From Actinomycetospora lutea (GTDB lineage Bacteria > Actinomycetota > Actinomycetes > Mycobacteriales > Pseudonocardiaceae), in contig NZ_JAQZAL010000001.1 of the NCBI RefSeq assembly GCF_028737205.1, forward strand, positions 186,001-250,000: DNA of 64,000 nucleotides, given 5' to 3'. The translations under genes and the position numbers were made by a program. The notes under the pieces were generated by a model that was not told the origin of the DNA, made no database searches, and was given only the letters and a program-made list of their open reading frames with translations. Shown here piece after piece: positions 1 through 30,605 of this stretch. How positions within the stretch are numbered: position 1 is the stretch's first letter; the number at the start of each line of letters is the position of its first letter.

Positions 1-1
1 C

Positions 2-358
2 ACTTACCGTCTAAACGAAGTCATTCTATCCGGCTGGGATATTCTTCCGTCAAACAATACTGCGAGCGCCTGGAGAAGTGAGCCGACCGAGGACGAACTC
101 GAGGAGATCGAGGAATGGCTCGGTGTGGATCTAAATAGTCGGCTTCTCGAAGATGTCGAGGAGCTTATAGGTTATCTCGATGATCTCGAGCTCCAGTCGC
201 TGGCAGCTCACACGACAGACGACATCGAGTCTCAAGTTCCTGAATTGCCTCGCTTCGATGCAGACGTGCAAGCGTGGGGTGACCACGAGCAACGCGATGC
301 CGATCTTGATATCTCGAACGAAGAGTGGAGGAACTTTGCGCGGGAATACCTTGATTGA
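2..358 (+). CDS. C-terminal part of an unidentified acidic protein (5' end outside window)
   Basis: The frame is open from the window edge to a TGA at 356-358, so only the last 118 residues are visible. They are strongly acidic, rich in Glu/Asp and predicted helical, with no motif I recognise. Codon use and GC content are lower than in the chromosomal part of the window and match the STAND gene that follows. The stop overlaps the likely TTG start of that gene by 8 nt, so the two are probably co-transcribed and translationally coupled. This makes it a candidate partner, effector or sensor of the STAND protein. The function is unknown, and the visible part alone does not allow a family call. 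Confidence 0.7.
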   Translation, partial: TYRLNEVILSGWDILPSNNTASAWRSEPTEDELEEIEEWLGVDLNSRLLEDVEELIGYLDDLELQSLAAHTTDDIESQVPELPRFDADVQAWGDHEQRDADLDISNEEWRNFAREYLD

Positions 359-3300
359 TAAAGCGCTGCAGGATCGGCTCGCCGACGGCAGGCTTCTACC
401 ACTGGTTGATTCCTCATTGGACGGTGAGTCCGGTGGGCACGCTGTGTCGCGCCGACACGCATTTGTTCGCCTTCTCTTGTCAAGCGACTTGCCAGCAGTG
501 ATTGCCTACCGCCACCCGAAGGCGTTGCACTCGGCACTGGCTGCATCGGACCCCGCCTGGCGTTTGGCGGGCGGCTTCTACACGAGGGAACCTGCAAACA
601 CGAAATATGTCCTCTCGGCCGGAGAGGCCGGCGATACTCCTACCTGGGAGGACGCGTGGCTCCGTGTGGAAGAGCAACAGCCTGTTCTCTGGGAGACTAT
701 GAGCAGCTATGCCGCTCGTTTCCCTCTGCTCCTTCTTGGTGTCGACCCTGGTTCGGGCGCGTTACAGGATCTCGTCGCGAGACTACGTCCACATCGCTAT
801 TTTAAACCTTCGGGCTGGATTGTTGCAGACCGTGTCGGAGAAGAAGTAGCTCATCAGTGGCAGGATCTCGGGCTTACTATCATAAGTATGACGGACGAGG
901 CGTTCCTCCGAACATGCACTGAGGAGCTCAATGTCCGATCGCACTCGGTCCGCGAGTGGATGCCGGATGTGACTGACCAAATTGCCGCCCAACCCTTCAA
1001 GCTTCTGGACTATTACGATATCGAGGATGCCTCCATTTTCTACGCACGAGGCGAGGAGACCCGTTCTCTCGTACGGATGGTTACATCGAACAGGCTGGTG
1101 ATTGTGACCGGGCCTTCGGGTGCTGGGAAGACGTCCCTCCTTAACGCTGGACTGATCGCCCATATCAATCACCTTCACCCCTATCGGGGTCTATATGTTC
1201 GACTCGTGGAAGATCCAATTGCAGAGTTGCTGGACGCATTTGAGCGTGAGTTGGGTATCACTTGTCAACGGCCATCGAACACGCTGCAGAGACGCGAGAT
1301 GTGGAGCGTCGTTGACGGCACGGATTCCCTACCTGTTGTCGTGTTCGATCAAGCCGAGGAGCTTTTCACTCGCTTCGAAAATACGATGCGAGATGATCTC
1401 TTCGCCCTAATGATTGAAGCGATCGCCTTTCCGCGAAGCCGAGTACGTTTCGTGGTTGGAATCCGGGAAGACTATCTGGCAAACTTGGCCGACTTTGCGA
1501 GGCAGCTGCCAGGAATCCTGCAGAACTCATTCTACGTCGGCGCGCTTGCGAAGGAGCAAGCGCTCGAGGCTATCCGGAGGCCATTTGAGGCGTTTGGGGT
1601 TCATCTAGATGCTGACCTCGAAGCCAAGATCGCGGCTGATATCGGGACGGTCCGCGTCGCCTCACCACAGCTTCAGATCGTCTGCCACAGGCTATTCTCC
1701 TCGCGGGAATCCGATTCAGTTGGGGTTGAGGACTATCGGCGACTTGGCGAGACTAAGGGTATCCTTCGAGATTTTCTCAATAATGAGCTCGAGAAATTGG
1801 GCACGGACCGTGCGGCTGTAGTCGAACTTCTCAAGTCCTTGGTCACGTCAGAAGGTACGAAGGACGTCCTGAGCTTGGAGGAACTCTCAGAACGGTCAGC
1901 GTTGCCATACACGTTATCGGAGAAGCTGGCTGGCTATCTTACGACCAACGCCAGGCTACTGCGTCCAGTCTCGAGCCGGTCCGGCGTACGCTACGAGTTG
2001 GCGCACGAGTACTTGACGCATGAGATTTGGCTGTGGATGTCGCCCGCTGAAATTAGTCGCCGAGAAGCGCAGGAGCTTATCTCTGCCGATTTGCGTGCTT
2101 GGACTACGTTCGATTCGCTGCGGCTGGGTATCGATCGGCTTGAAAGGTATGAGAAGCATGCCCAGAATATTAAGGTTGACGAAGACGTCGGAACGCTGCT
2201 CCTTTTGAGCTGTGTGCGGTATTCTCGGCCTCATGGAGTCTGGGTCGAGGCAATTCGGAGACTTCCTCAGCCCGCCCAAATGCGCATCTCGTGGTCCCTC
2301 CTTCGTTTCATCGCTTCGCGTCCGGACAATCAACGATTCGAGGCGGCGGAAGCCATAGCGTCGCTAGGCAGCTCTGTGATCATTTCAGCCTTATCGGCAG
2401 CGGATCGTGATATTCGACGCGCAGCGTTGTACATGGTGGGCGGCCTGGGACTCTCGTCAGCGCGGCCAGTCTTGATCGAGATGCTTGAGAAGGCTGAGGA
2501 TGAGCGATCGGAAGAGCTCGCATGTTTCGCGCTTGGCGAGATTGGTGGCAAGGGTGTTGTACAAGCCCTCATTCCACGTACATCGGGTCGTTCAGTTCAG
2601 GTAGCAGCCGCCGCTGTCCGCGGTCTTGGGGCCTGTCGTGAAGCACAGGCGTATCCGTACTTGATGGCAGCATTGTGGGGAACTCAGCCAGCGATGACTC
2701 GCGCTGCCCAGCTTGGTGTCGCTGCAGCTGCGTCTGTGGAACTGTCCATCTACCTTGCTGCGAACATCGAAACGATCGCGGATGTCAACGGGCATCCGGT
2801 AACCATCGATTCTGCGCGCAGGCTCTCCCTTATTTTGGAAGGTTTGGATCACGCTCGGATTGGCGGTGATGAGCTGCTGGCTCCGTTCGCCTCTCTTATT
2901 CGAGCGAAGCCCCTGGAAATGAAACGCTATAGTTGTGCGTGGCTCGTCGAGGGCCTTCGGCGAATTTCAGGTGGCGGTATGCCCGCTGAGAGGCCTGACC
3001 GACAGCGGGTCAAGCAGAAGCTCCTATCCGCCGATCAAGTGGTTGCCGCGCTTGAAAGGTACCGACCGGACTCAGTCGCTCACGCGTTGGCAAGAGGCGG
3101 ACCAAGGTCGCTGCCAATCCTTCGAGGACTTTCCTCCCACGAATCGGATAAGGTTCGCCTTACTGTGCTGATGGCATTGTGGCTGTACGATGAGTCACGG
3201 ATCGGGGCAACCTGGCGCACCCACATAAGGCCATCAATTCTCGTGCGCGGTCTCCAAGATGACAGCCCAGCCGTTCGGTATTATGCATGTCTTGCAGTGA

Positions 3301-3488
3301 AGAATCTCAGGCTGATTGAGTGCGTCCCATTCCTTCGGTCACTCGCGCGTGATGACGCGCGTGGAAGTTGGTATGTGATAGACGTCGGCAAGCGTGTAAG
3401 TGATGCGGCCCACGCGGCTCTCGACGCTCTGCGCCCAGAGTCTAGAGTTTGGCGGAGAGATTGGCAGTTAGATGCGAGACCCCTCTGA
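351..3488 (+). CDS. STAND-family NTPase with SIR2-like N-terminal region and HEAT-like repeats
   Basis: Start taken as TTG 351, overlapping the upstream stop; the only nearby alternative is GTG 444. The protein has 1,045 residues. Residues about 1-215 resemble a SIR2-like fold: 'LADGRLLPLVDSS' sits where a Rossmann glycine loop would lie, and 'LLLLGVDPGSGALQDLVARL' matches the SIR2_2 pattern around its conserved Asp. The glycine loop looks degenerate, so NADase activity is doubtful. A nucleotide-binding module follows, with Walker A GPSGAGKTS near residue 255 and Walker B-like VVVFDQAEELF near 330, the form typical of novel STAND NTPase 1. A winged-helix part ('YELAHEYLTHE') and HEAT/PBS-lyase-like repeats from about residue 660 to the end come next. 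STAND proteins of this build are often antiphage sensors; that role here is inference. Low GC and mobile-element context support acquisition by transfer. Confidence 0.75.
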   Translation: MIDKALQDRLADGRLLPLVDSSLDGESGGHAVSRRHAFVRLLLSSDLPAVIAYRHPKALHSALAASDPAWRLAGGFYTREPANTKYVLSAGEAGDTPTWEDAWLRVEEQQPVLWETMSSYAARFPLLLLGVDPGSGALQDLVARLRPHRYFKPSGWIVADRVGEEVAHQWQDLGLTIISMTDEAFLRTCTEELNVRSHSVREWMPDVTDQIAAQPFKLLDYYDIEDASIFYARGEETRSLVRMVTSNRLVIVTGPSGAGKTSLLNAGLIAHINHLHPYRGLYVRLVEDPIAELLDAFERELGITCQRPSNTLQRREMWSVVDGTDSLPVVVFDQAEELFTRFENTMRDDLFALMIEAIAFPRSRVRFVVGIREDYLANLADFARQLPGILQNSFYVGALAKEQALEAIRRPFEAFGVHLDADLEAKIAADIGTVRVASPQLQIVCHRLFSSRESDSVGVEDYRRLGETKGILRDFLNNELEKLGTDRAAVVELLKSLVTSEGTKDVLSLEELSERSALPYTLSEKLAGYLTTNARLLRPVSSRSGVRYELAHEYLTHEIWLWMSPAEISRREAQELISADLRAWTTFDSLRLGIDRLERYEKHAQNIKVDEDVGTLLLLSCVRYSRPHGVWVEAIRRLPQPAQMRISWSLLRFIASRPDNQRFEAAEAIASLGSSVIISALSAADRDIRRAALYMVGGLGLSSARPVLIEMLEKAEDERSEELACFALGEIGGKGVVQALIPRTSGRSVQVAAAAVRGLGACREAQAYPYLMAALWGTQPAMTRAAQLGVAAAASVELSIYLAANIETIADVNGHPVTIDSARRLSLILEGLDHARIGGDELLAPFASLIRAKPLEMKRYSCAWLVEGLRRISGGGMPAERPDRQRVKQKLLSADQVVAALERYRPDSVAHALARGGPRSLPILRGLSSHESDKVRLTVLMALWLYDESRIGATWRTHIRPSILVRGLQDDSPAVRYYACLAVKNLRLIECVPFLRSLARDDARGSWYVIDVGKRVSDAAHAALDALRPESRVWRRDWQLDARPL

Positions 3489-3954
3489 TGCCGTCTGCTG
3501 CGCCCCCCGACTCTGGGCAGGCTGCGGCCTGTTGACGCGTGAAACGCGCTAGGTTGGTGGTCGCCTGCGCCCGTCGTCGCAGGTAACGATCTCGACGTTT
3601 CGCTAATAGACAGCGCACCGCATTGGTGCGGAGGCGATGGGACGATAACCAGTACGGCGTCTTCAAAGGGAGAAACCCATCGGTGCCAGACGTGGATGCG
3701 AAGGTGCGGAAATCGTCAACATCCCGGGACCCGGTGCCGCGTCTACGGGCCACGGCGGCGTCGGTGATTCCGGACACCCGTCTACGCGATCCCTCGATTC
3801 ATCGGTGCGTGACGCGACCTAATTTTTAAGCCTTTGTGCGTGGAGCTCGCGATAGCCCGTAGCATCGATACAGCGCACCTCTTCACGGTCTTGCGCTCCT
3901 GTCCCGTGGGGTTCCCGACCACCTTCGGTATAATCATCCGAAAGCTCGCTGTCG
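3489..3954. other. 466-nt stretch without a supported gene
   Basis: This interval separates the plus-strand STAND gene from the minus-strand zinc-ribbon gene. Open frames exist on both strands but none has a plausible ribosome-binding site, domain or codon bias. Composition is intermediate between the low-GC cargo and the rest of the element. It may hold the 3' ends of both transcripts, but I see no convincing hairpin. Confidence 0.4.
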
Positions 3955-4815
3955 CTAGCACGAGTCTTGACGATGGTCAAATCCGTCCGCCCCTTTGTGC
4001 GGTCCGCAGCCGGTGGTGCGTTCGTTCGACCCATCGTGGATCGCGGTCTTACGTTCGCGAAGGTGATGGCTGTGACCGGATAGAAAAGCGGGGGTCCACC
4101 GTTTGAGATCGCCGAGGCTGGAGATATCGATGTGTACACCAGTACACATGGCGCGTGGACCTCGAGAATCCTTTCGAAGCGCAATCGAGTGCTGCACGCG
4201 GAGCGTTGTGAGCCAGGTCGATAAGGTCTCGGTGGTCGTGGCCGCGAAGGCGGCGGTGCCAACTTCGTTCCGCCACCACGTGACGCCTCCGTCGGATACC
4301 ACGATGGCCGCTCCGTTCAGGAAGCCGACGAGGGCACGCTGTGCAGCGCGTTCCTCCTCGGTGAGGGGCCTGCCGCGTTCCTTGCGACGGTAGTAGCTCG
4401 CGAGGGCGGAGGCTCTCTTCCGTTCGCGGCGGGCGGCATCCTTGGCGGGGTGGGGGTCGCTGCCGCAGTCCCAGCAGTTCTGCTGGTTCTTCTCGGCGTT
4501 CTTCCGTTGGACGGTCCGGGTGTGACCGCAGCCGATGTAGGTGTGGGCGACGAGCCGCGTGGGGGAGTGCACGCACTCGGGGCAGGCGGCGACGTCGCTG
4601 TTCTTCCACTTGGGCATTCCGGTGCGGGTGGCGACCTTGTCTTGCCACTCGTGGCCCTCGGCGCAGCGCCACCACACGGTGGCCGGCGAGGTGGCCGGGA
4701 TCGTGTCCGGGGTGCACCGCCCTGGCCCTGCGCCGTTCCGGTCCGGGTGCCATTGAGCGGCGAGGGCCGGGAATCGGGCTGCGAGGGTGCGGCTGGGGTC
4801 GAGGCTTCGAGGCAT
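3955..4815 (-). CDS. zinc-ribbon (DUF4379-like) protein next to the replication initiator
   Basis: 286 residues. The N-terminal half has the pattern of the 'probable zinc-ribbon' family (DUF4379/PF14311): 'FPALAAQWHPDRN' then 'VWWRCAEGHEWQDKVATRT', followed by CPEC (about residue 78). A second Cys/His set follows: 'GCGH' near 95 and 'CWDCGSD' near 113. These could bind one or two zinc ions. A basic helix 'RRERKRASALASYYRRKERGR' region and a C-terminal half without a recognised domain complete it. A strong AGGAGG lies just upstream of the ATG, and only 15 nt separate it from the stop of the Rep gene, so it is the promoter-distal gene of the same operon. Such ribbons occur in endonuclease-like and nucleic-acid-binding proteins; the actual role here is unknown. 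The last 100 residues have poorer codon bias, and a shorter real protein cannot be excluded. Confidence 0.65.
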   Translation of the reverse strand: MPRSLDPSRTLAARFPALAAQWHPDRNGAGPGRCTPDTIPATSPATVWWRCAEGHEWQDKVATRTGMPKWKNSDVAACPECVHSPTRLVAHTYIGCGHTRTVQRKNAEKNQQNCWDCGSDPHPAKDAARRERKRASALASYYRRKERGRPLTEEERAAQRALVGFLNGAAIVVSDGGVTWWRNEVGTAAFAATTTETLSTWLTTLRVQHSIALRKDSRGPRAMCTGVHIDISSLGDLKRWTPAFLSGHSHHLRERKTAIHDGSNERTTGCGPHKGADGFDHRQDSC

Positions 4816-22303: not shown

Positions 22304-22333
22304 GGTGAGACGGGGCGGCGGGCGGGTCTCACC
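22304..22333. terminator. bidirectional hairpin terminator between convergent genes
   Basis: GGTGAGAC (22304-22311) pairs with GTCTCACC (22326-22333) around a G-rich loop. It lies between the ends of the MDMPI-type gene (plus) and the FHA-like gene (minus) and can serve both. Confidence 0.6.
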
Positions 22334-23168
22334 GGCCGCCGATCCGCGGCACCTGGCTCGGGAAGAGCAGACGCACGTCGTCGAGGGTGACCAGCCGCAG
22401 GTGGATGACCTGCTCGACCACCGCGATCCGCCAGCCCCGGGTCTTGTCGTTGAGCCGCAGGCCGCGCAGCCAGCGCTGGGCGTGCCGGAAGGCCTCGCTC
22501 TGGGTCTTCGGGCTCGGTGCGGGGCGGCCCTCGGCGCGGTGCCAGTCGGCGATCTGCTCGGCGTCGCCGTGCACGTCGCGCGGCACGCTGCCCGGGCCGG
22601 CGAGCGCCGCCGCGATGATCGTGGGCCCGCAGGCGGCCACGAGCACCGACCACCACGTCTCGGCGGTCGGCAGCGAGGTGTCGATGGTGCGCCCGCCCGC
22701 GAACCCGCCGCTGGTGGTCGGCCCCGCGCCGGCGGTGGGGGCGAAGCGCAGCAGGGCCAGGGTCAGCTCCTGGCCGTCGGGGAACCACAGGCCCAGCGAG
22801 GACCGGTCGTCGCGGACGAGCAGGCCGTTGCCGGCGCGGATCCGGTCCTTGCCCGGCACGCCGGGCACGAACAGCGTCAGCAGCGCGCCGTGGCGCTGCC
22901 GGTTGATGATCAGGTAGGCGTCGTCGCGGACCTCGATCTCGGCGGCCAGGCGCGAGACCCGGTCGTCGGGGACCGGGACGTGGCGCGGGCCGCCCTGGAC
23001 GCCGCGGCCGGTGGCGTCGCCGCGCCCGATCGTGATCCGCTCGCCCCACGGCACCGACTGCGTGTGCTCGGTGCGCACGTCGAGCACCGCGAGCCCGCCG
23101 ACGGGCAGGCGCGGGGACGGCGCCTGCGGGGGACCGGACCGGACCGGGCGTGCGGCGGGTCGCGTCAC
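22329..23168 (-). CDS. FHA-like domain protein with C-terminal helical domain
   Basis: 279 residues from GTG 23168, with GGGAGGTG upstream. Residues about 45-100 follow an FHA outline: 'RITIGRGDATGRG', then 'VPDDRVSRLAAEIEVRDDAYLIINR'. The Gly-Arg and Ser-Arg of the phosphothreonine pocket are kept, but the usual His after Ser-Arg is replaced. The C-terminal part ('WLRGLRLNDKTRGWRIAVVEQVIHLRLV', about 230-265, read in parts) looks helical and may be a second domain. It is the last of three minus-strand genes after cvpA-like and the DUF3662-like membrane gene, so it may read the phosphorylation state of a membrane-linked partner. Function unknown. Confidence 0.6.
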   Translation of the reverse strand: MTRPAARPVRSGPPQAPSPRLPVGGLAVLDVRTEHTQSVPWGERITIGRGDATGRGVQGGPRHVPVPDDRVSRLAAEIEVRDDAYLIINRQRHGALLTLFVPGVPGKDRIRAGNGLLVRDDRSSLGLWFPDGQELTLALLRFAPTAGAGPTTSGGFAGGRTIDTSLPTAETWWSVLVAACGPTIIAAALAGPGSVPRDVHGDAEQIADWHRAEGRPAPSPKTQSEAFRHAQRWLRGLRLNDKTRGWRIAVVEQVIHLRLVTLDDVRLLFPSQVPRIGGR

Positions 23169-23202
23169 GCCACCTCCCGGTCGGCCGGAGAGCGGGTGAG
23201 CC

Positions 23203-24312
23203 TCACTCGCCCCCGCTGCGGCGGGGATCCGCCGGTCGCCGCCACGATACTCCGGGTCGTCCGGCGCCCCGCGCCGTCGCCACGACACGCTCGACCAGGG
23301 TCGGGCGCTCGACGACCTGCGTCCCGGCACGGGCAGGTGCGGTGGGTGCGGTCATCGTGGCGTCCTGACGACCGTGGGCGACCGTCGTCGCCAGGCCGCC
23401 CCGACCACGCGGACCACGCGGACCACGCGGATCACCACAATCTCCCCGGCCGATGGTCGAGCTCCGCTGCGCTCCGTCTCCCCGGAACCCCCCGACGGAG
23501 TCCCGGGAAACCCCCGCCGGCCCCCGCGCCGGGGCCGGCCGAGGTGGTGACGCCACCCGCGCCGCGGGCAGCGCCGGGCCCGGCCGGCCGGCTGCCCCCG
23601 GCACGGCCGGGCCGGGCGGTCCCGGCGGGGAGGGGGGACCCGCCGGGACGGGAGGCGCCGACAGCGACGTGGGGGTCGGGTCGGTCGCGGACGTGGTCGC
23701 CGCGGGCGTCGCCGCGGGTCGCGAGAACGCGGCAGTGACGATCACGCGGCCGACGGGGACGTCGGGGCCCGCGAGCAGGTGCAGGAACGTGCGCTCGGCC
23801 AGCCGGCGCGCCTCGCCGGCGCGGGCGTGCTCGAGGTAGCCGCTGAGCAGCTCGTCGGCGAGCACCTCGAGGGGCCAGCGGGCGGCGACGTCGGCGAGGT
23901 CGTCGGGGTGCAGCTCCACCCACAGGTGCGGCGCCGTGACGCGCTGCCCGCGCGGGGTCCACACGAGCGCCTCCTCGGAGGCGAGCCGCCGCGCGGCGGC
24001 GCGGACCAGCCCGTCACCGTGCACCCACGGCCGCCCGAGCATGCCGCGCAGGGTCCGGCGCACGCGGTCGCCGGCCGAGGTCGGGCCGAGGTCGGCGGTG
24101 GGCAGCGCGTCCGCGACCGCGGACCCGCCGGCCTGCCCGCGCGCCGCCCGTCCGCTCCAGGACACGAACAGCCAGGCACCGAGCGCGGTGGCGCCGACGA
24201 GGACGAGGACCAGCAGCGCCAGGAGGAAGGAGCCGGAGCCCCACCAGGTCAGGAGCAGCAGCACGAACGCACCGCCGCCGACGAGGCGGGGGAGGGTCGC
24301 GGGGGTCGTCAT
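23203..24312 (-). CDS. membrane protein with DUF3662 (FhaA N-terminal)-like domain and Pro-rich tail
   Basis: 369 residues; ATG 24312 overlaps the stop of the CvpA-like gene (ATGA). Two hydrophobic segments occupy residues 8-50. Residues about 85-195 ('LVRAAARRLASEEALVWTPRGQRVTAPHLWVELHPDDLADVAARWPLEVLADELLSGYLEHAR' in parts) resemble the DUF3662 domain found before FHA in mycobacterial FhaA, which binds the MviN/MurJ region. A Pro/Gly/Ala-rich tail follows and contains a GPR tandem repeat (9-bp units, 23402-23428) and a copy of a dispersed DNA repeat. The tail therefore may be evolutionarily recent. Role inferred as cell-envelope control; not established. Confidence 0.6.
   Translation of the reverse strand: MTTPATLPRLVGGGAFVLLLLTWWGSGSFLLALLVLVLVGATALGAWLFVSWSGRAARGQAGGSAVADALPTADLGPTSAGDRVRRTLRGMLGRPWVHGDGLVRAAARRLASEEALVWTPRGQRVTAPHLWVELHPDDLADVAARWPLEVLADELLSGYLEHARAGEARRLAERTFLHLLAGPDVPVGRVIVTAAFSRPAATPAATTSATDPTPTSLSAPPVPAGPPSPPGPPGPAVPGAAGRPGPALPAARVASPPRPAPARGPAGVSRDSVGGFRGDGAQRSSTIGRGDCGDPRGPRGPRGRGGLATTVAHGRQDATMTAPTAPARAGTQVVERPTLVERVVATARGAGRPGVSWRRPADPRRSGGE
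23420..23487 (-). repeat. dispersed ~30-bp repeat (copy A) next to a 9-bp tandem repeat
   Basis: On the minus strand, GGGGAGACGGAGCGCAGCGG continues to AGCTCGACC (complement of about 23456-23485). Two relatives occur at about 35011-35041 and 42279-42307. Just to its left lie 9-bp units GGACCACGC between 23402 and 23437. Both sit in the Pro-rich tail of the DUF3662-like protein. Confidence 0.6.
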
Positions 24313-24821
24313 CGCGCGCCCCCGTCGGCCAGGGTGGGCGCCTCGACCGGCAGCAGCACCAGCGGGTTCGGCAGCCGCTCGGCGGCGGCGCCCAGCACGG
24401 CGCTGTCCCGCGCGGCGTCGCCGAGGCCCGCCGGGCCGAACGCGGTCACGACGCCGGTGAGCAGCACGAGCACCATGAGGGTCAGCGCGCTGTGCGCGGC
24501 GACGCCGAGGACGCGGTCGGGCAGGGCGGGACGGCGCCACCCGCCGCCGGTGCGCCGGGCGAGGCCGTCGCCGAGCCGCCGGCCCAGCCCCCAGCCGATC
24601 AGCGCGCCGACCAGCGCAGCACCGAGCACCAGGGCGTACCGGGAGATGCCGTCGTCCGTGGTGACGAGCATCGGCACCAGCCAGCGGGCGAGCGCCCCGG
24701 CCAGCAGCACGCCGGCCACGGCGCCCGCGGCCTTCAGCACGAGCCCGGTGCCACCCCGGCGCCACCCGCGCAGCGCGGCGATCACGACCACCGCGAGCAC
24801 CAGCAGGTCGACGATCGTCAC
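24309..24821 (-). CDS. CvpA-family membrane protein
   Basis: 170 residues from GTG 24821. 'VTIVDLLVLAVVVIAALRGWRRG' is the family's start, followed by three more hydrophobic segments ('GLVLKAAGAVAGVLLAGALA', 'YALVLGAALVGALIGWGLG', 'SALTLMVLVLLTGVVTAFG'). CvpA/colicin V production proteins affect envelope permeability; in mycobacteria MarP adds a protease domain, which is absent here. The 4-nt overlap with the DUF3662-like gene ties them into one operon with the FHA-like protein. Confidence 0.75.
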   Translation of the reverse strand: MTIVDLLVLAVVVIAALRGWRRGGTGLVLKAAGAVAGVLLAGALARWLVPMLVTTDDGISRYALVLGAALVGALIGWGLGRRLGDGLARRTGGGWRRPALPDRVLGVAAHSALTLMVLVLLTGVVTAFGPAGLGDAARDSAVLGAAAERLPNPLVLLPVEAPTLADGGAR

Positions 24822-24925: not shown

Positions 24926-26428
24926 CTAATTCCCGGAAACGACGGCGCCGGGGCCCTCGAGGGGCACCAGCACCTCCTGCATGCCGGGGCTGTCGACGGG
25001 GCCGCCGGCCATCCGGGTCAGGAAGCCGATCACCCCCGCCGAGCCCCAGTGCCAGGACGGCTCCCCGCCGAGCGTCCACCGCCCGGCCTCGCGGGTCGCG
25101 CCCCACCGGTGCTCGGGCGTCGCGACGGCGAGCAGCCAGTTGCGGGCCGCGCGGGCCGCGCCGGCGAACTCGTCCTCGCCCGTGACGCGCCCGAGCGAGT
25201 CGAGGAACCAGCCCGTGCCCGCCGCGCCGCTGTTGGTGGCCGTGTGCACGATCGGGCTGCCCTCGTACTCCGCCCACGCGCGCCCGACCGGCTCGGTCAG
25301 CGAGACGTCGACGAGCCAGCGCCCGGCGGCGCGGGCGCGCTCGAGGTGGCGGGCGTCGCCGAGGATCGCGTGGGCCTGCAGCGACACCCAGCCGATCCCC
25401 GCCGCGCCCTCCTCCATGCCGGTGGCGCGGCGGGGGTTGTCGGGGACGAGGGCCTGCGGCCCGGCGCCGAGCAGTATCGGCCAGGTCACCCCTCGCCCGG
25501 CGGGCTGCGCGGTGCGGTCGAGGAAACCCAGCGCGGACTCCGCGTCGCGGCGCCAGCGCTCGTCGCCGGTCGCCTGGTACATCCGCAGGAAGACGAAGGC
25601 GGCGCCCGCGGTGCCCGACAGGAAGCCGGTGTTGCGCCGCGGCTCGTCGTCGCGCTCGGGCAGGCCGCCGTCGTCGTCGAGGCGGCTCGACAGGTACGCC
25701 GCGCCGCCGGCCGCGTGGGCGGTGAGCTCCGGGTCGCGCAGGCGCTCGCCCATCACCGAGAGCGCGTAGACGATGCCGGACTGCCCCTCGCCCATCCCGT
25801 GGCGGTATGACGGCGCGCCACCGCCCTCGACGTCGGCCCACGACCAGCGGCACCGCTCGGGGCAGGGCAGGCCGTCGACGCCCTCGGCGCGGTCGAGCAC
25901 CCACTGCAGCGACGCCCGGGCGCCCGCGCGGAAGCGCTCCTCGCCGGTGGCCTCGCCGACGCGCCACAGCACCTCGGCGATGCCCGCCGCGCCGTCGTCG
26001 AACGACGTGTAGGCGCGGTCGGCGGGCCCGCCCGGGTTGACGTAGTCGGGCACGCGCCCGCCGCGCGAGGCGCCGAGCAGGAAGTCCCCGGCGGCGCGCG
26101 CCCCGCCGAGCCAGCGCTCGCGCGCCGCGGGATCGGGCGTCGCGGCGGCCAGCGCGAGGAACCCGTGCGCGACGCCCGCCGCACCGACGTCGCGGTCGGT
26201 CTGGCGGTTGGGCGCCTGGATGGAGCTCGTCCAGGCGCGCGCACCGGAGAGCGCGGCCGGCACGTCGGCGCCGAGCGGGTCGGGCACGGCGTCGTCGAGG
26301 AGGCGCTGGGCGAAGGCGGTCGGCAGGGGCGGTGCTCCGGTGCCGGGGTCCGGCTCGTCGGCGGGGGCCGTGGCGCAGCCGGCGGCGAGCAGGCCGATGG
26401 CGAGCACGAGGACCAGGGCCCGGATCAC
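24926..26428 (-). CDS. LanC-like (alpha/alpha)-barrel lipoprotein
   Basis: 500 residues from GTG 26428. Signal 'VIRALVLVLAIGLLAAGCATAP' ends in lipobox 'LAAGC' (Cys 18). The mature part has seven regularly spaced GxxG-type motifs: GAAGV, GAAGI, GQSGI, GTAGA, GAAGI, GAAGT and GSAGV, the layout of LanC-type barrels. The LanC zinc ligands (Cys and Cys-His pair) are not seen, and no lanthipeptide precursor is nearby, so it is not a lanthionine synthetase. Many (alpha/alpha) barrels are glycoside hydrolases or lyases. Its GTG overlaps the stop of the polysaccharide deacetylase gene (GTGA), so a role in trimming or binding the exported polysaccharide is the best inference. Confidence 0.75.
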   Translation of the reverse strand: MIRALVLVLAIGLLAAGCATAPADEPDPGTGAPPLPTAFAQRLLDDAVPDPLGADVPAALSGARAWTSSIQAPNRQTDRDVGAAGVAHGFLALAAATPDPAARERWLGGARAAGDFLLGASRGGRVPDYVNPGGPADRAYTSFDDGAAGIAEVLWRVGEATGEERFRAGARASLQWVLDRAEGVDGLPCPERCRWSWADVEGGGAPSYRHGMGEGQSGIVYALSVMGERLRDPELTAHAAGGAAYLSSRLDDDGGLPERDDEPRRNTGFLSGTAGAAFVFLRMYQATGDERWRRDAESALGFLDRTAQPAGRGVTWPILLGAGPQALVPDNPRRATGMEEGAAGIGWVSLQAHAILGDARHLERARAAGRWLVDVSLTEPVGRAWAEYEGSPIVHTATNSGAAGTGWFLDSLGRVTGEDEFAGAARAARNWLLAVATPEHRWGATREAGRWTLGGEPSWHWGSAGVIGFLTRMAGGPVDSPGMQEVLVPLEGPGAVVSGN

Positions 26429-27249
26429 GGGACCACCACGGCGGGCGAGCCCTGGTTGACCGCCGAGCGGACCGGCGAGGGCGCGACGACGCCGAAGGTG
26501 AAGCCGCGGGCGCGGAGCTGGTCGATCGCGCGCGGCAGGTACTCGAGCTGCGAGGGCGGGCAGCCGACCACGTCGCCCGCGTCGTGGAGCAGGATCATCG
26601 CCTGGTCGGTGGCCTCGGTCACCACGTAGTCGGTCACCGCGTCGGCCCCGCCGCACTGGAAGTCGCCCTTGCGGTTCGTTGTCCACTTCCAGTGGACGCC
26701 GCCGGTGAGCCCCAGCCGGGCCAGCGCGGCGTCGCCCTCGGGGGAGGACTGGCCGAACGGGTAGCGGAACAGGGTCGGGCGCTGCCCGGTGATGCTGGTC
26801 AGCAGCTCGTTGGTCCGCCGGATCTCCTGCTCGGCGTCCTCGGCGCCCAGGTCCGGGAACCACGGGTGCTGCCACGCGTGGTTGGCCACGACGTGGCCCT
26901 CGGCCTGCACGCGGCGCACCAGCTCGGGGTGGGCCTGCGAGTGGTCGCCCTGCAGGAAGAACGTCGCGCGCACGCGCTTGGCGGCCAGCACGTCGAGGAT
27001 GTACGGGGTGAGCTGCGGCGACGGGCCGTCGTCGAAGGTCAGGGCGACGCGGGGGCCGGCCCTGTCGTCCGGGGCCGGCGGGAGCGCCCGGTCCGCGGCC
27101 GTCGGGGTGTAGCGCGGGCCGCTCGCGAGCTCGCCGCGGTCGGCCGCGCCGGCGAAGTCGGCGCCGAACGAGATCACCACCGTCGCGAGCAGCGCGACGA
27201 GGAAGAACAGGAGCGATCGGACGTTGCGGCGCCGGTCGTCGAAGGACAC
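26425..27249 (-). CDS. membrane-anchored polysaccharide deacetylase (NodB domain)
   Basis: 274 residues. An N-terminal helix 'LLFFLVALLATVVISFGADF' anchors the protein. The NodB domain shows motif 1 'ALTFDDGPSP' (about residue 68, two Asp), motif 2 'HVVANHAWQHPWF' (His-x3-His type, about 118), motif 3 'FRYPFGQSS' (about 160) and a later 'MILLHDAGD' (His). It removes acetyl groups from N-acetylated hexosamines of a polymer outside the membrane. It lies 4 nt before a 59-aa membrane gene and in the same operon direction as the GT2 polymerase, as pgaB does with pgaC. Confidence 0.9.
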   Translation of the reverse strand: MSFDDRRRNVRSLLFFLVALLATVVISFGADFAGAADRGELASGPRYTPTAADRALPPAPDDRAGPRVALTFDDGPSPQLTPYILDVLAAKRVRATFFLQGDHSQAHPELVRRVQAEGHVVANHAWQHPWFPDLGAEDAEQEIRRTNELLTSITGQRPTLFRYPFGQSSPEGDAALARLGLTGGVHWKWTTNRKGDFQCGGADAVTDYVVTEATDQAMILLHDAGDVVGCPPSQLEYLPRAIDQLRARGFTFGVVAPSPVRSAVNQGSPAVVVP

Positions 27250-27253
27250 GCGC

Positions 27254-27433
27254 TCAGCGGCGGAGGCGGGCGCCGCGGCGCACGATCCGGACGAGCAACA
27301 TCGTCGTGAACAGCACGGTCACCGCCATGAGCACGGCCGCCATGGCGTTGATCCCGGTGGCCGCGGCCAGGGCGAGGCCGGTGGTGCCACCGCCGACCCC
27401 GCTCGTGAGGTACATCGAGTGCTCGCCGTACAT
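27254..27433 (-). CDS. 59-aa membrane protein between GT2 and deacetylase genes
   Basis: Short frame with ATG 27433, stop complement of 27254-27256. It begins 'MYGEHSMYLTSGVGGGTTG', has one long hydrophobic stretch 'INAMAAVLMAVTVLFTTMLL' and ends in a basic tail 'VRIVRRGARLRR'. It lies between the GT2 gene (48 nt downstream of its stop) and the deacetylase gene (4 nt upstream of its start), with GC-rich third positions. A small accessory subunit of the polymerase complex, comparable in position to PgaD, is a reasonable inference; no family recognised. Confidence 0.65.
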   Translation of the reverse strand: MYGEHSMYLTSGVGGGTTGLALAAATGINAMAAVLMAVTVLFTTMLLVRIVRRGARLRR

Positions 27434-27481
27434 CCCCGCGCTCCGTCCCCTTCCGATCCGATCGATCCCTGATCGATTCCG

Positions 27482-28765
27482 CTACCAGGCCTGGCGCCGC
27501 GCGTTGAGGCAGCGCCAGGCCGCCACCACCGCGCACAGCTCCAGGAAGAACCCGTAGAAGTCCTCGACGACGAGGACCGCGACGAGCGCGACGTCGGTGG
27601 CGCTCCGCCCCGGCAGGCGCCACATCGACGTCACCCGCTCCAGCCACATCACCCCCAGCGGGATGAGCCCGATCAGCGCGTACCGGAACGGCACCGCGTA
27701 GACGATCATCAGCGTGAGCATGGTCAGGAACAGCACGCGGAAGAACACGCTGAAGCCGAACAGCACGTAGGACAGGCAGTCCTGCCGCGTCGCGGTCGAC
27801 CAGCCGCGCTTGAGGCACTCGTCCATCCCGCCGCGGCCCCAGCGCAGACGCTGCACCCACAGCTCGCGGAACGACCCGGGCGGGGTGGTGTAGACGTGCG
27901 CCTTGCGGGCGGCGGCGACGCGGTAGCCGCGGGCCTTGAGCTCGAGGGTGAGCGCGTAGTCCTCGATCAGCGAGGAGCCGTCCCACGGCTCGCCGGCCTC
28001 GCGGGCGGCGGCGACGGCCTCGAGCGCCGCGTTCCGGTACATCGCCGCGGCGCCGCTCGCGACCGAGACCCGCCAGCGCCTCAGGTCGCGCAGGTCGTCG
28101 TAGCGCGTGTACTCGAGGCGCTGCAGCCGCCAGACCAGGCCCTTCCCCGGCGACGCCCAGTAGCGCGCGCAGACGGCGCCGAGCACGGCGTTGGCGCGCA
28201 GCTCGCCCGCCATCTCCGCGACGGTGTCGGGCAGCAGGACGGTGTCGGCGTCCATGGTCAGGACGAGGTCGGCGTCGCGGGCGGTCTCGCGCCAGCCGTG
28301 GTTGAGCGCGCCGGCCTTCTTGTCCGGGTTGTGCGGCATCTCCAGCACGGTCACCGGGTAGCGCCGCGCGATCTCGGCGGTGCGGTCGGTGCAGTTGTTG
28401 GCGACGACGACGACCTCGGCGATCCGCAGCCACTCGGGGACGTCCTGGGCGAGGAGACCCTCGACGGTCGCCGCGATGCCCTCCTCCTCGTCGTGCGCCG
28501 GCACCAGGACCGCGACGGTCGTGGTCTTCGTGCGCGCGGCGCGCTCCTCGACCGGCTTCTTCGCGGGGGCCTTGATCGGCGTGCGCGTGGCCGGGGCGGG
28601 GGCCGGGGCGGGGGCGGGCGCCGCGATCGCCGTCCGGAGCTGGATCGTCGGCGCGTCGGGGTCGCTCGAGCGCCGGGCCGGGCGGTGGCGGGTGCCGATG
28701 GGGACGGCGACGTGGGGCGCTGATCCGTCCGCTCGCCCCGTCCGCACAGCCTGGCTGCTCGCCAC
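27482..28765 (-). CDS. family 2 glycosyltransferase, processive polysaccharide synthase
   Basis: 427 residues. A basic, Pro/Ala-rich cytosolic N-terminus of about 80 residues precedes the GT2 domain: 'VAVLVPAHDEEEGI' (about 86), 'LVLTMDADTVLLP' (DxD, about 165), 'SLIEDYALTLELKARGYRV' (the ED catalytic base) and 'WVQRLRWGRGG' (QxxRW, about 297). Three or four C-terminal membrane helices follow. This is the layout of hyaluronan/chitin/PNAG synthases that couple polymerisation to export. With NagA upstream and a deacetylase downstream, a beta-linked N-acetylhexosamine polymer is the likely product (inference). The 139-nt upstream gap contains the AT-richest bases of the locus and probably a promoter. 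Confidence 0.88.
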   Translation of the reverse strand: MASSQAVRTGRADGSAPHVAVPIGTRHRPARRSSDPDAPTIQLRTAIAAPAPAPAPAPATRTPIKAPAKKPVEERAARTKTTTVAVLVPAHDEEEGIAATVEGLLAQDVPEWLRIAEVVVVANNCTDRTAEIARRYPVTVLEMPHNPDKKAGALNHGWRETARDADLVLTMDADTVLLPDTVAEMAGELRANAVLGAVCARYWASPGKGLVWRLQRLEYTRYDDLRDLRRWRVSVASGAAAMYRNAALEAVAAAREAGEPWDGSSLIEDYALTLELKARGYRVAAARKAHVYTTPPGSFRELWVQRLRWGRGGMDECLKRGWSTATRQDCLSYVLFGFSVFFRVLFLTMLTLMIVYAVPFRYALIGLIPLGVMWLERVTSMWRLPGRSATDVALVAVLVVEDFYGFFLELCAVVAAWRCLNARRQAW

Positions 28766-28904
28766 GTCACCTCACCTGCGTCGTCGGTCGGTCCCCGAAC
28801 GGTCATCACCCGATCGGTGGGCCCTCGTGTCGGACATACCGTACACAGGCGGGATTTCGTTACACCATCGTGAGAAATCGGGTGTTCCGAGTGACACCGC
28901 GGTC

Positions 28905-30020
28905 TCACTCCGTGGTGTCTCGCTGGTCCATCCCGCGGCCTTCGACGAGCACCCGTGTGACGCTGAGTGCGTCGTCCAGGAGGACGAGATCCGCGGCGAC
29001 ACCCGGCGCGAGGCGCCCCACGTGGCGGCGCCCGAGGAGGCGCGCGGGCACGGTCGTCGCGGCGCCGACCGCCTCGACGAGCCCGACCCCGGCCGCGACG
29101 GCCGTGCGGACCCCGCGGACCAGGGGTGCCGCGGCACCGGCGAGCCCGCCCGCGGCGTTGCGCACCGCCCCGTCCGCCAGCGTGACCGGGAGCCCGGCGA
29201 GCCGGAACGGGCCGTCGGGCATCCCCGTCGCCGCGGTCGCGTCGGTGACCAGCGCCCAGCGCCCGGGCGCGGCGGCCGCGGCCAGGCGCAGCATCTCGGG
29301 GGCGACGTGGTGGCCGTCGGCGATGAGGGTCGGGGTGACCTCGGGGCGCGTGAGCGCGACCGCCGCGAGGCCGGGCGCGCGGTGCCCGAGCCCGCTCATG
29401 GCGTTGTAGAGGTGCGTCACGGCCCGCACGCCGCGGTCGACCGCCGCGTGCGCGGCGGCGGCGTCGGCGTCGCTGTGCCCGGCGGCGACGAGGACGCCGC
29501 GCGCGCGGAGCAGGTCGACGAGCGCCCCGGCGCCCGGGAGCTCGGGGGCCAGGGTGACGACGTCGACGCGCCCGGCGTCCAGCAGGCGGGCGAGCAGGTC
29601 GGGGTCGGGGTCGCGGCGGTGCTCGGGCGGGTGGGTGCCGAGCCGGGCGGCGGCGAGGAACGGGCCCTCGAGGTGGGCCCCGAGGAGGCGGGCGCCGGGG
29701 GTCGCGCTCGCCCGGGCGGCGTCGAGCCGCGCGAGGGCCGCCGCCGTCCGCGCCGGGTCGTCGGTGAGCAGGGCGGGGCACAGGGCGGTCGTGCCGTCGC
29801 GGGCGGCGGCCGCGCGCACCGTCGCCACGTCCTCGACCGCCGCGCTCGCGAGGTCGACCCCGGCGTACCCGTGGCAGAGCAGGTCGACCAGGCCGGGGAC
29901 CGCGATCGTCCCGCCGCGCGCCGCCGGGAGCCCGACCGCGGCCACCCGGCCGTCGGCGACCTCGACGTCGCCCGGGCACCAGGCACCGTCGACCACCGCT
30001 CCCGAGACACCGAGCCGCAC
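28905..30020 (-). CDS. nagA: N-acetylglucosamine-6-phosphate deacetylase
   Basis: 371 residues from GTG 30020. An amidohydrolase-type beta-barrel: 'GLVDLLCHGYAGVDL' replaces the usual HxH region with a single His, as in many NagA. 'LGAHLEGPFLAAARLGTH' (about residue 120) and 'AGHSDADAAAAHAAVDRGVRAVTHLYNAMSGLGHRAPGL' (about 180-218, read in parts) are diagnostic NagA motifs; 'LVTDATAATGMPDG' holds the catalytic Asp. It converts GlcNAc-6-P to GlcN-6-P. Its position 139 nt upstream of the GT2 synthase, on the same strand, suggests amino-sugar supply or recycling for that system. Confidence 0.9.
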   Translation of the reverse strand: MRLGVSGAVVDGAWCPGDVEVADGRVAAVGLPAARGGTIAVPGLVDLLCHGYAGVDLASAAVEDVATVRAAAARDGTTALCPALLTDDPARTAAALARLDAARASATPGARLLGAHLEGPFLAAARLGTHPPEHRRDPDPDLLARLLDAGRVDVVTLAPELPGAGALVDLLRARGVLVAAGHSDADAAAAHAAVDRGVRAVTHLYNAMSGLGHRAPGLAAVALTRPEVTPTLIADGHHVAPEMLRLAAAAAPGRWALVTDATAATGMPDGPFRLAGLPVTLADGAVRNAAGGLAGAAAPLVRGVRTAVAAGVGLVEAVGAATTVPARLLGRRHVGRLAPGVAADLVLLDDALSVTRVLVEGRGMDQRDTTE

Positions 30021-30045
30021 GCCCCCAGTCCTACCCTGGGGCGCG

Positions 30046-30605
30046 GTGACCGCCATCGAGATCGTGGGCTTCGTCGTCTCGCCCGCGCACGCGTACGAGG
30101 GACGTCCCGGGGACGGGCCGCGGCCGGTGCCGACGACGACCCCCGACGTGATCACGATCCGCGCCGGCCACGGGTGGAGGGCGACCGGTACGCGGGGCGG
30201 GCGGCGCACCGGGACGCGGCGGTGACGCTGCTCGCGATCGAGGCGCTCGAGGCGGTGGCCACGGAGCTCGGGGTGCCGCCGTTCGACCCGGTCGCGGCGC
30301 GGCGCACGATCGTCACGCGCGGCCTGGAGGTCGAGGCGCTGCGCGGGCGCGAGTTCGCGATCGAGGCCGGCGGCGGGCCCGTGCGGCTCGGCGGCGGGCG
30401 TCCGGCGGCGCCGTGCGCCTGGATGGACGTGGTCCTGGCCCCCGGCGCCCACGCGGCGCTGCGCGGGCGCGCCGGCGTCCGCTGCGCGGCCCTGTCGTCC
30501 GGGACGCTGCGCGCCGGCCCGGCGACCATGACGGTCACCGACGGCCTCGGCGACCCGGATCCCGCGCGGGCGGGCCTGCCCCACCGGCGGCGCGCCCGGG
30601 CGTGA
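30046..30605 (+). pseudogene. MOSC-domain protein gene with a frameshift
   Basis: Frame 1 from GTG 30046 gives 'VTAIEIVGFVVSPAHAYEGR...PDVITIRAGHG', the usual start of a MOSC protein, then runs into unrelated residues and a stop at about 30225. The continuation lies in another frame from about 30174: 'VEGDRYAGRAAHRDAAVTLL', then 'RTIVTRGLEVEALRGREFAI', 'RLGGGRPAAPCAWMD' and on to a stop at 30603-30605. The join falls at the 'GHG-VEGDRYAG' motif, which is continuous in intact MOSC proteins. So a single-base change near 30165-30180 has split the gene, or the sequence has an error there. MOSC domains carry sulfur for molybdenum-cofactor enzymes through a Cys; one is visible in 'PCAWMD'. Confidence 0.75.

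Follow-up and report, generated by a model that had tools for sequence, protein, structure and literature searches.

The locus described here lies in a 64,000-nucleotide stretch of DNA from the little-studied soil bacterium Actinomycetospora lutea (contig NZ_JAQZAL010000001.1, positions 186,001 to 250,000), hereafter the window, which belongs to a high-GC actinobacterial genome of 6.5 Mb. Four closely packed minus-strand genes, read from position 28765 down to 24926, encode a family 2 glycosyltransferase (GT2), a small protein of 59 amino acids (p59), a family 4 carbohydrate esterase (CE4) and a lipoprotein with the LanC fold:

27482..28765, minus strand: processive GT2 synthase, 427 aa (PF00535, 4.8e-25; motifs)
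27254..27433, minus strand: p59, 59 aa, a single transmembrane (TM) segment; belongs to an unnamed family whose genes directly follow those of actinobacterial GT2 synthases
26425..27249, minus strand: CE4 polysaccharide deacetylase, 274 aa (PF01522, 1.4e-36; motifs)
24926..26428, minus strand: LanC-fold lipoprotein, 500 aa (PF05147, 6.4e-13; lipobox LLAAGC, read by eye)

A GTGA overlap joins the CE4 stop to the LanC-like start, and the spacers measure 4 nt between p59 and CE4 and 48 nt between GT2 and p59. A sigma-70 promoter scan found none (0.0 expected), and an Rfam scan gave no match at gathering score. A sequence-only reading had assigned these genes, together with an adjoining NagA-like gene, to an exopolysaccharide system paralleling pgaABCD; the positions of all five open reading frames (ORFs) hold, and the observation stands, with four genes instead of five.

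The GT2 protein has a Pro/Ala-rich N-terminus followed by the catalytic domain, with hydrophobic segments near the C-terminus only. The DxD, ED and QxxRW motifs are all present (DAD at 172, ED at 268, QRLRW at 305), their acids and the Q, R and W being invariant in 11 of 11 aligned sequences, which together with the PF00535 match bears out the assignment as a GT2 synthase. Its best-scoring models are PgaC/IcaA (TIGR03937; 95.5 bits against an equivalog cut-off of 422.3), EpsU (81.3) and glycosyltransferase-XrtP (58.1); all lie far under cut-off, and the polymer is therefore not to be called poly-N-acetylglucosamine (PNAG) or chitosan yet. The deacetylase was likewise correctly recognized: the CE4 protein keeps the active-site motifs TFDD, HAWQH, RYPF and LLHD, with the D-H-H metal ligands, has a single N-terminal hydrophobic segment, taken as an anchor, and aligns to the peptidoglycan N-acetylglucosamine (GlcNAc) deacetylase 2c1g (5.1e-28) across the metal and catalytic motifs. 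For this stand-alone CE4 protein the best model is NodB, at 124.3 of 240 bits. Elsewhere in the same genome (G000:C40:186591-188297), CE4 and GT2 matches share a single open frame of 1434 aa, which probably encodes a fusion protein. The 59-aa membrane protein of the sequence-only reading is confirmed by its one hydrophobic segment; its layout is MYGE...LALAAATG...TM...RRGARLRR, with a basic tail. Pfam gives it no match below E 0.01 and NCBIfam none at E 1; the PgaD and IcaD models of both collections likewise fail to match it at E 1, and p59 was rejected as a PgaD or IcaD family member, although it may share their function.

The fourth protein begins with a hydrophobic segment ending in the lipobox and continues as an alpha/alpha barrel with the seven GxxG motifs of PF05147, in agreement with its earlier description as a lipid-anchored, seven-motif LanC-like protein. 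The C/C/H zinc triad of LanC (CxG / CHG) is absent. With residues numbered after row 1 of the alignment, one less than in the 500-aa protein, the corresponding columns hold N398, H459 and W460 in the register of the profile, or E338/E339, N398 and S399 when the motifs are matched one to one along the sequence. Invariant cysteines are limited to C17 (lipid), C188 and C192, and the proposed lack of zinc ligands is upheld. The barrel invariants include D79, D143, D144, E213, E338, E339, N398 and H459: acids are invariant in four of the seven GxxG motifs, and Asn and His in two others, at about 40% divergence among the barrels. Among fold neighbours LanC ranks first, followed by others including AGE-type sugar epimerases; the GH47 and epimerase rows (Foldseek, and a VIA-align second look at the same list) would accommodate other families as well. 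PDB sequences searched with the LanC profile gave a best E of 0.014 (LanCL2).

Within the genus, 13 of 18 genomes hold a LanC-like match, one of them (G008) cut, starting inside the gene at a contig end. The five genomes lacking it, among them G004 (83% complete) and G013 (59%), also lack a strong GT2 ortholog, which occurs in 12 of the 18 and always adjoins the LanC-like gene. The order GT2-p59-CE4-LanC is kept in 11 of 11 relatives with uncut loci, including L050-L053, whose site gave no match to any of seven genes that flank the cassette in the window; outer flanks were gene-called in four loci (window, L050, L053, L089). A Pseudonocardia metagenome-assembled genome (MAG; L065 = L089) has the same four genes, the LanC-like gene running off the contig end; among the 62 genomes of its genus, no other has a LanC-like match. 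All four genes are thus present at 13 of 13 loci uncut upstream of the LanC-like gene (window, 11 relatives and MAG). A LanC-like gene occurring routinely without the GT2 and deacetylase genes, named beforehand as the finding that would speak against the system, was not encountered. The proportion of nonsynonymous differences (pN) lies below that of synonymous ones (pS) in every one of the 20 gene comparisons, with p59 among them (window against L050: 0.212 vs 0.437).

Wider searches place the LanC-type cassette in one genus and one MAG among the genomes searched, a narrow spread. The family search found the LanC type in 14 of 297 genomes, own genome counted; a contig scan of named genomes, which needs an exact peptide pattern and may miss distant kin, gave 12 LanC-type loci (11 Actinomycetospora, 1 Pseudonocardia); and plasmid records gave four matches, none covering 80%. 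The phylum search (396 genomes) returned the own genome and four weak matches (E 9e-7 to 9e-10), three of them in open frames of 901-964 aa, as in lanthipeptide synthetases. The fourth, in G697 (L088 8324-9769), is a stand-alone 481-aa LanC-like protein that retains Cys-His motifs and passes the Pfam cut-offs of GH127, C5-epim_C and GH76, with GH88 just below; neither GT2 nor CE4 is among the genes called around it. Searches of the open-licence PubMed Central (PMC) literature found no report of a LanC-like protein within an exopolysaccharide system.

The proposed fifth gene does not share this linkage:

28905..30056, minus strand: NagA-like amidohydrolase, neighbour judged outside the cassette (NCBIfam nagA 215.9 bits, under the cut-off of 225.65)

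Five of the 11 Actinomycetospora relatives with uncut loci have it beside the cassette; it was not found in the remaining six (L045, L046, L050-L053) or in the Pseudonocardia MAG, and it lies 6-8 kb from cvpA at three of five cvpA sites that lack the cassette (L226, L227, L229). On this patchy pattern NagA was rejected as a member and is regarded as an old neighbour rather than a partner; of the five-gene co-occurrence envisaged earlier, the part comprising GT2, p59, CE4 and the LanC-like gene stands. On the other side of the cassette, at 22329-24821 on the minus strand, lies a block of three genes, one of them CvpA-like and another encoding a 369-aa protein to which Pfam gives no match; the block is kept at eight other Actinomycetospora sites that lack the cassette (L100-L107). 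Positions 1-4000 of the window have a GC content of 0.56-0.59 against 0.70-0.79 in the rest, and were perhaps recently acquired.

A second cassette of the same design in the same genome (L087 3643-7125, G000:C24) encodes a GT2, a 73-aa protein with the MY-type start, a CE4 and, fourth, a protein with a lipobox (by eye), a GH16 domain and an EIDVVE motif; it also occurs in G017 (L086) and in a Pseudonocardia-genus genome, G203 (L142). These cassettes share with that of the window the gene order, the small MY-type protein, the CE4 and a fourth gene with an export signal, whereas their GT2s are just 32-34% identical to the window GT2 and their fourth protein has the GH16 and not the LanC fold. 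For comparison, 72 distinct GT2 loci were assembled (13 LanC-type, 4 further ones of the genus and 15 of the family, these 32 being every row of their search, and 40 of the 49 non-own rows of the wider search), which are the best-scoring loci and not a random sample. In the tree of the 72 GT2 domains a very long branch leads to a single group (100/100) that holds the 13 LanC-type synthases, and the three GH16-type synthases form a separate group (100/100), nested among loci without CE4. When 8-15.5 kb around each of the 59 non-LanC GT2 genes were searched with two CE4 queries (tblastn, E 1e-5), a CE4 relative was found at three, exactly those with GH16. Since the GH16-type GT2s nest among loci without CE4 and, in the regions searched, only the GH16 loci among these 59 have a CE4, the association of a CE4 and a secreted hydrolase-type protein with a GT2 has arisen on at least two occasions, the secreted protein being GH16 in one case and the LanC barrel in the other. 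This recurrence, a positional argument, is the main reason for regarding the LanC-like protein as a polymer-processing enzyme.

Building on the observed gene set, order and conservation, the signal and membrane features, the fold class, the loss of the zinc triad and the separately assembled GH16 cassette, we lean, by a small measure, towards a four-gene cassette for synthase-dependent exopolysaccharide production in which the barrel acts as a trimming hydrolase or lyase on the emerging polymer. Judging from its family motifs, the GT2 would polymerize a nucleotide sugar into a beta-linked chain and pass the chain through the membrane; UDP-GlcNAc is the probable donor because of the CE4 partner and because PgaC/IcaA, far under cut-off as it is, is the best-scoring model. 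Linkage and conservation suggest that p59 is a small membrane partner assisting the GT2. The membrane-anchored CE4 would remove acetyl groups outside, most likely from a GlcNAc polymer, and the lipid-anchored barrel, in which the LanC zinc site appears to have been exchanged for other residues, carboxylates among them, may then trim or cleave the chain, as the parallel cassette, the fold neighbours and the conserved acids suggest.

Several points weigh against this reading. In the Pfam scan at E 1 the window barrel matches LANC_like only; the GH127, GH88 and C5-epimerase scores of a relative are below cut-off; no catalytic pair could be placed in the barrel; and the conserved acids could bind metal or a cationic polymer without cleavage. 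As to the parallel, the lipobox and the small-ORF start of L142 are uncertain, and the LanC-type GT2 clade is so distant from the other GT2s (branch 2.68, midpoint root) that partner roles may not carry over between cassettes. GH16 enzymes act mostly on glucans and galactans, and for this reason the LanC and GH16 cassettes may make different polymers.

The barrel could instead be a non-catalytic protein that binds or guides the glycan, holding the acetylated or deacetylated polymer at the membrane in the manner of an anchor or chaperone. The lost zinc site, the lack of a recognized catalytic pair and the lipid anchor (lipobox by eye, hydrophobic start) are all consistent with such a role; however, the many polar residues that stay invariant despite the divergence of the barrels, with acids in four of seven GxxG motifs, and the glycosidase family that fills the same slot in the GH16 cassettes make it fairly unlikely.

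The small proteins raise a further alternative, namely that the cassette makes a wall-bound glycan or decorates a wall polymer or protein rather than producing free exopolysaccharide, with the small protein as a sortase-type anchor. Up to 260 nt behind each GT2 were scanned for small ORFs with a hydrophobic segment and high third-position GC, and one of 47-89 aa was found in 61 of the 72 loci, with none of this kind at 11; as a control, 621 other called genes from these loci were scanned in the same way, which yielded 32 candidates. M, V or L, then Y within four residues, starts 48 of the 61 (47 with the start chosen by the scan at L065) against 9 of 621, and LAxTG (23) or LPxTG (2) precedes the TM segment in 25 of the 61 against none of the 621 control genes. 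These 25 mini-proteins, 47-63 aa long and found across Actinomycetes, consist of motif, TM segment and basic tail, resembling a cell-wall sorting signal on its own, and show no evident signal peptide; no report of such a protein beside a GT2 was found in the open-licence PMC literature. They occur at the following loci:

L084, L085, L143-L145, L151-L156, L187, L188, L190-L192, L199, L203, L206, L208, L213, L216, L218, L223, L225

A sortase-like gene lies near the GT2/mini-protein pair at 8 of the 59 non-LanC loci. Four are of class E type or match Pfam Sortase:

L084 6733-7479
L085 236-1024
L199 4950-5603
L206 6572-7156

The L085 sortase passes the class E cut-off and that of L199 falls just under it; for those of L084 and L206, both Pfam Sortase and the L085 query give a match. 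The class F cut-off is passed by the L196 sortase, to which those of L193 and L200 are more than 80% identical, with L189 matching more weakly; the mini-proteins at these four class F-linked loci have no clean motif. The motifs and the nearby sortases favour wall attachment. At the LanC-type loci, however, the motif is broken in all 13 small proteins (LAAATG, LAATQG, LAASQG and similar), and on this ground p59 was rejected as an intact substrate of sortase; queries for sortases of classes E and F had no match in the window at E 1e-5. A wall-bound product is accordingly improbable here.

That the barrel is some other sugar-modifying enzyme, such as a polymer-level epimerase, a transglycosylase or an ester-modifying enzyme, is suggested by the AGE-type epimerases among its fold neighbours and by the weak C5-epim_C score of the Pseudonocardia barrel (3.4e-4, below cut-off). 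AGE-type enzymes, however, act on free sugars or oligosaccharides, and no epimerase family scored above cut-off for the three cassette barrels scanned, which leaves this quite improbable. That the barrel is a genuine cyclase, one that forms lanthionine or modifies peptides and is exported as a lipoprotein, would be allowed by the fold and Pfam family but is hardly credible given the missing zinc triad, the lipoprotein signal and the three preceding genes, which at all 13 loci are of polysaccharide type and not dehydratase partners.

Going beyond the trimming hydrolase or lyase, it is possible, though somewhat less likely than not, that a LanC-fold protein became a hydrolase or lyase of polysaccharide outside the cytoplasm and founded a new carbohydrate-active family, working with the GT2 and with an undescribed family of single-TM partners that derives from, or gave rise to, the mini-proteins resembling sortase sorting signals. 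Should the barrel cleave polymer, a fold hitherto associated with peptide cyclization and glutathione chemistry would gain an extracellular carbohydrate activity, one that family-based enzyme annotation would be missing. The occurrence of LanC-like and GH16 proteins in the same slot within one genome makes the polymer-processing idea directly testable. The small ORFs further suggest that annotation understates how often GT2 synthases of Actinomycetes are accompanied by a helper of the PgaD/IcaD kind.

Compared with the LanC and LanCL proteins, the LanC domain of CuvL, and NisC, the barrel differs in lacking the zinc triad, in being a lipoprotein and in its polysaccharide gene neighbourhood; it stands alone, without a LanB dehydratase or a LanM, LanL or LanKC domain as partner within the cassette, whose other genes are GT2, small protein and CE4 at 13 of 13 loci; the outer flanks called in four loci were not scanned for families. 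BcsZ (GH8) and AlgL (PL5) are extracytoplasmic alpha/alpha barrels encoded with polysaccharide synthases, a setting like that of the present barrel, which belongs to a different family from either and has no Pfam match to GH8 or PL5. With icaADBC and pgaABCD the cassette shares a processive GT2 with QxxRW, a small membrane protein beside it and an extracytoplasmic deacetylase. It differs in that p59 is of another, single-TM family, that the CE4 is stand-alone with a NodB-like best model, and that a LanC-fold lipoprotein takes the place of the C-terminal domain of PgaB, which carries a hydrolase-type domain. PgaA, IcaC and a two-domain PgaB are missing inside the cassette, the rest of the genome not having been searched for PgaA or IcaC; together with the low PgaC/IcaA score and the unmatched p59, this leaves the close likeness to pgaABCD once proposed unsupported; what is retained is a polysaccharide system of the envelope in which a LanC barrel without the zinc site takes the position expected of a hydrolase. 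According to PMC7112194, PgaD and IcaD are mutually unrelated, yet each is needed by its own glycosyltransferase, and since this is so, p59 would fit as a third, unrelated small partner. The cassette is thus of a known kind, a synthase-dependent polysaccharide cassette, and its unusual part is the fourth protein, the LanC-fold lipoprotein.

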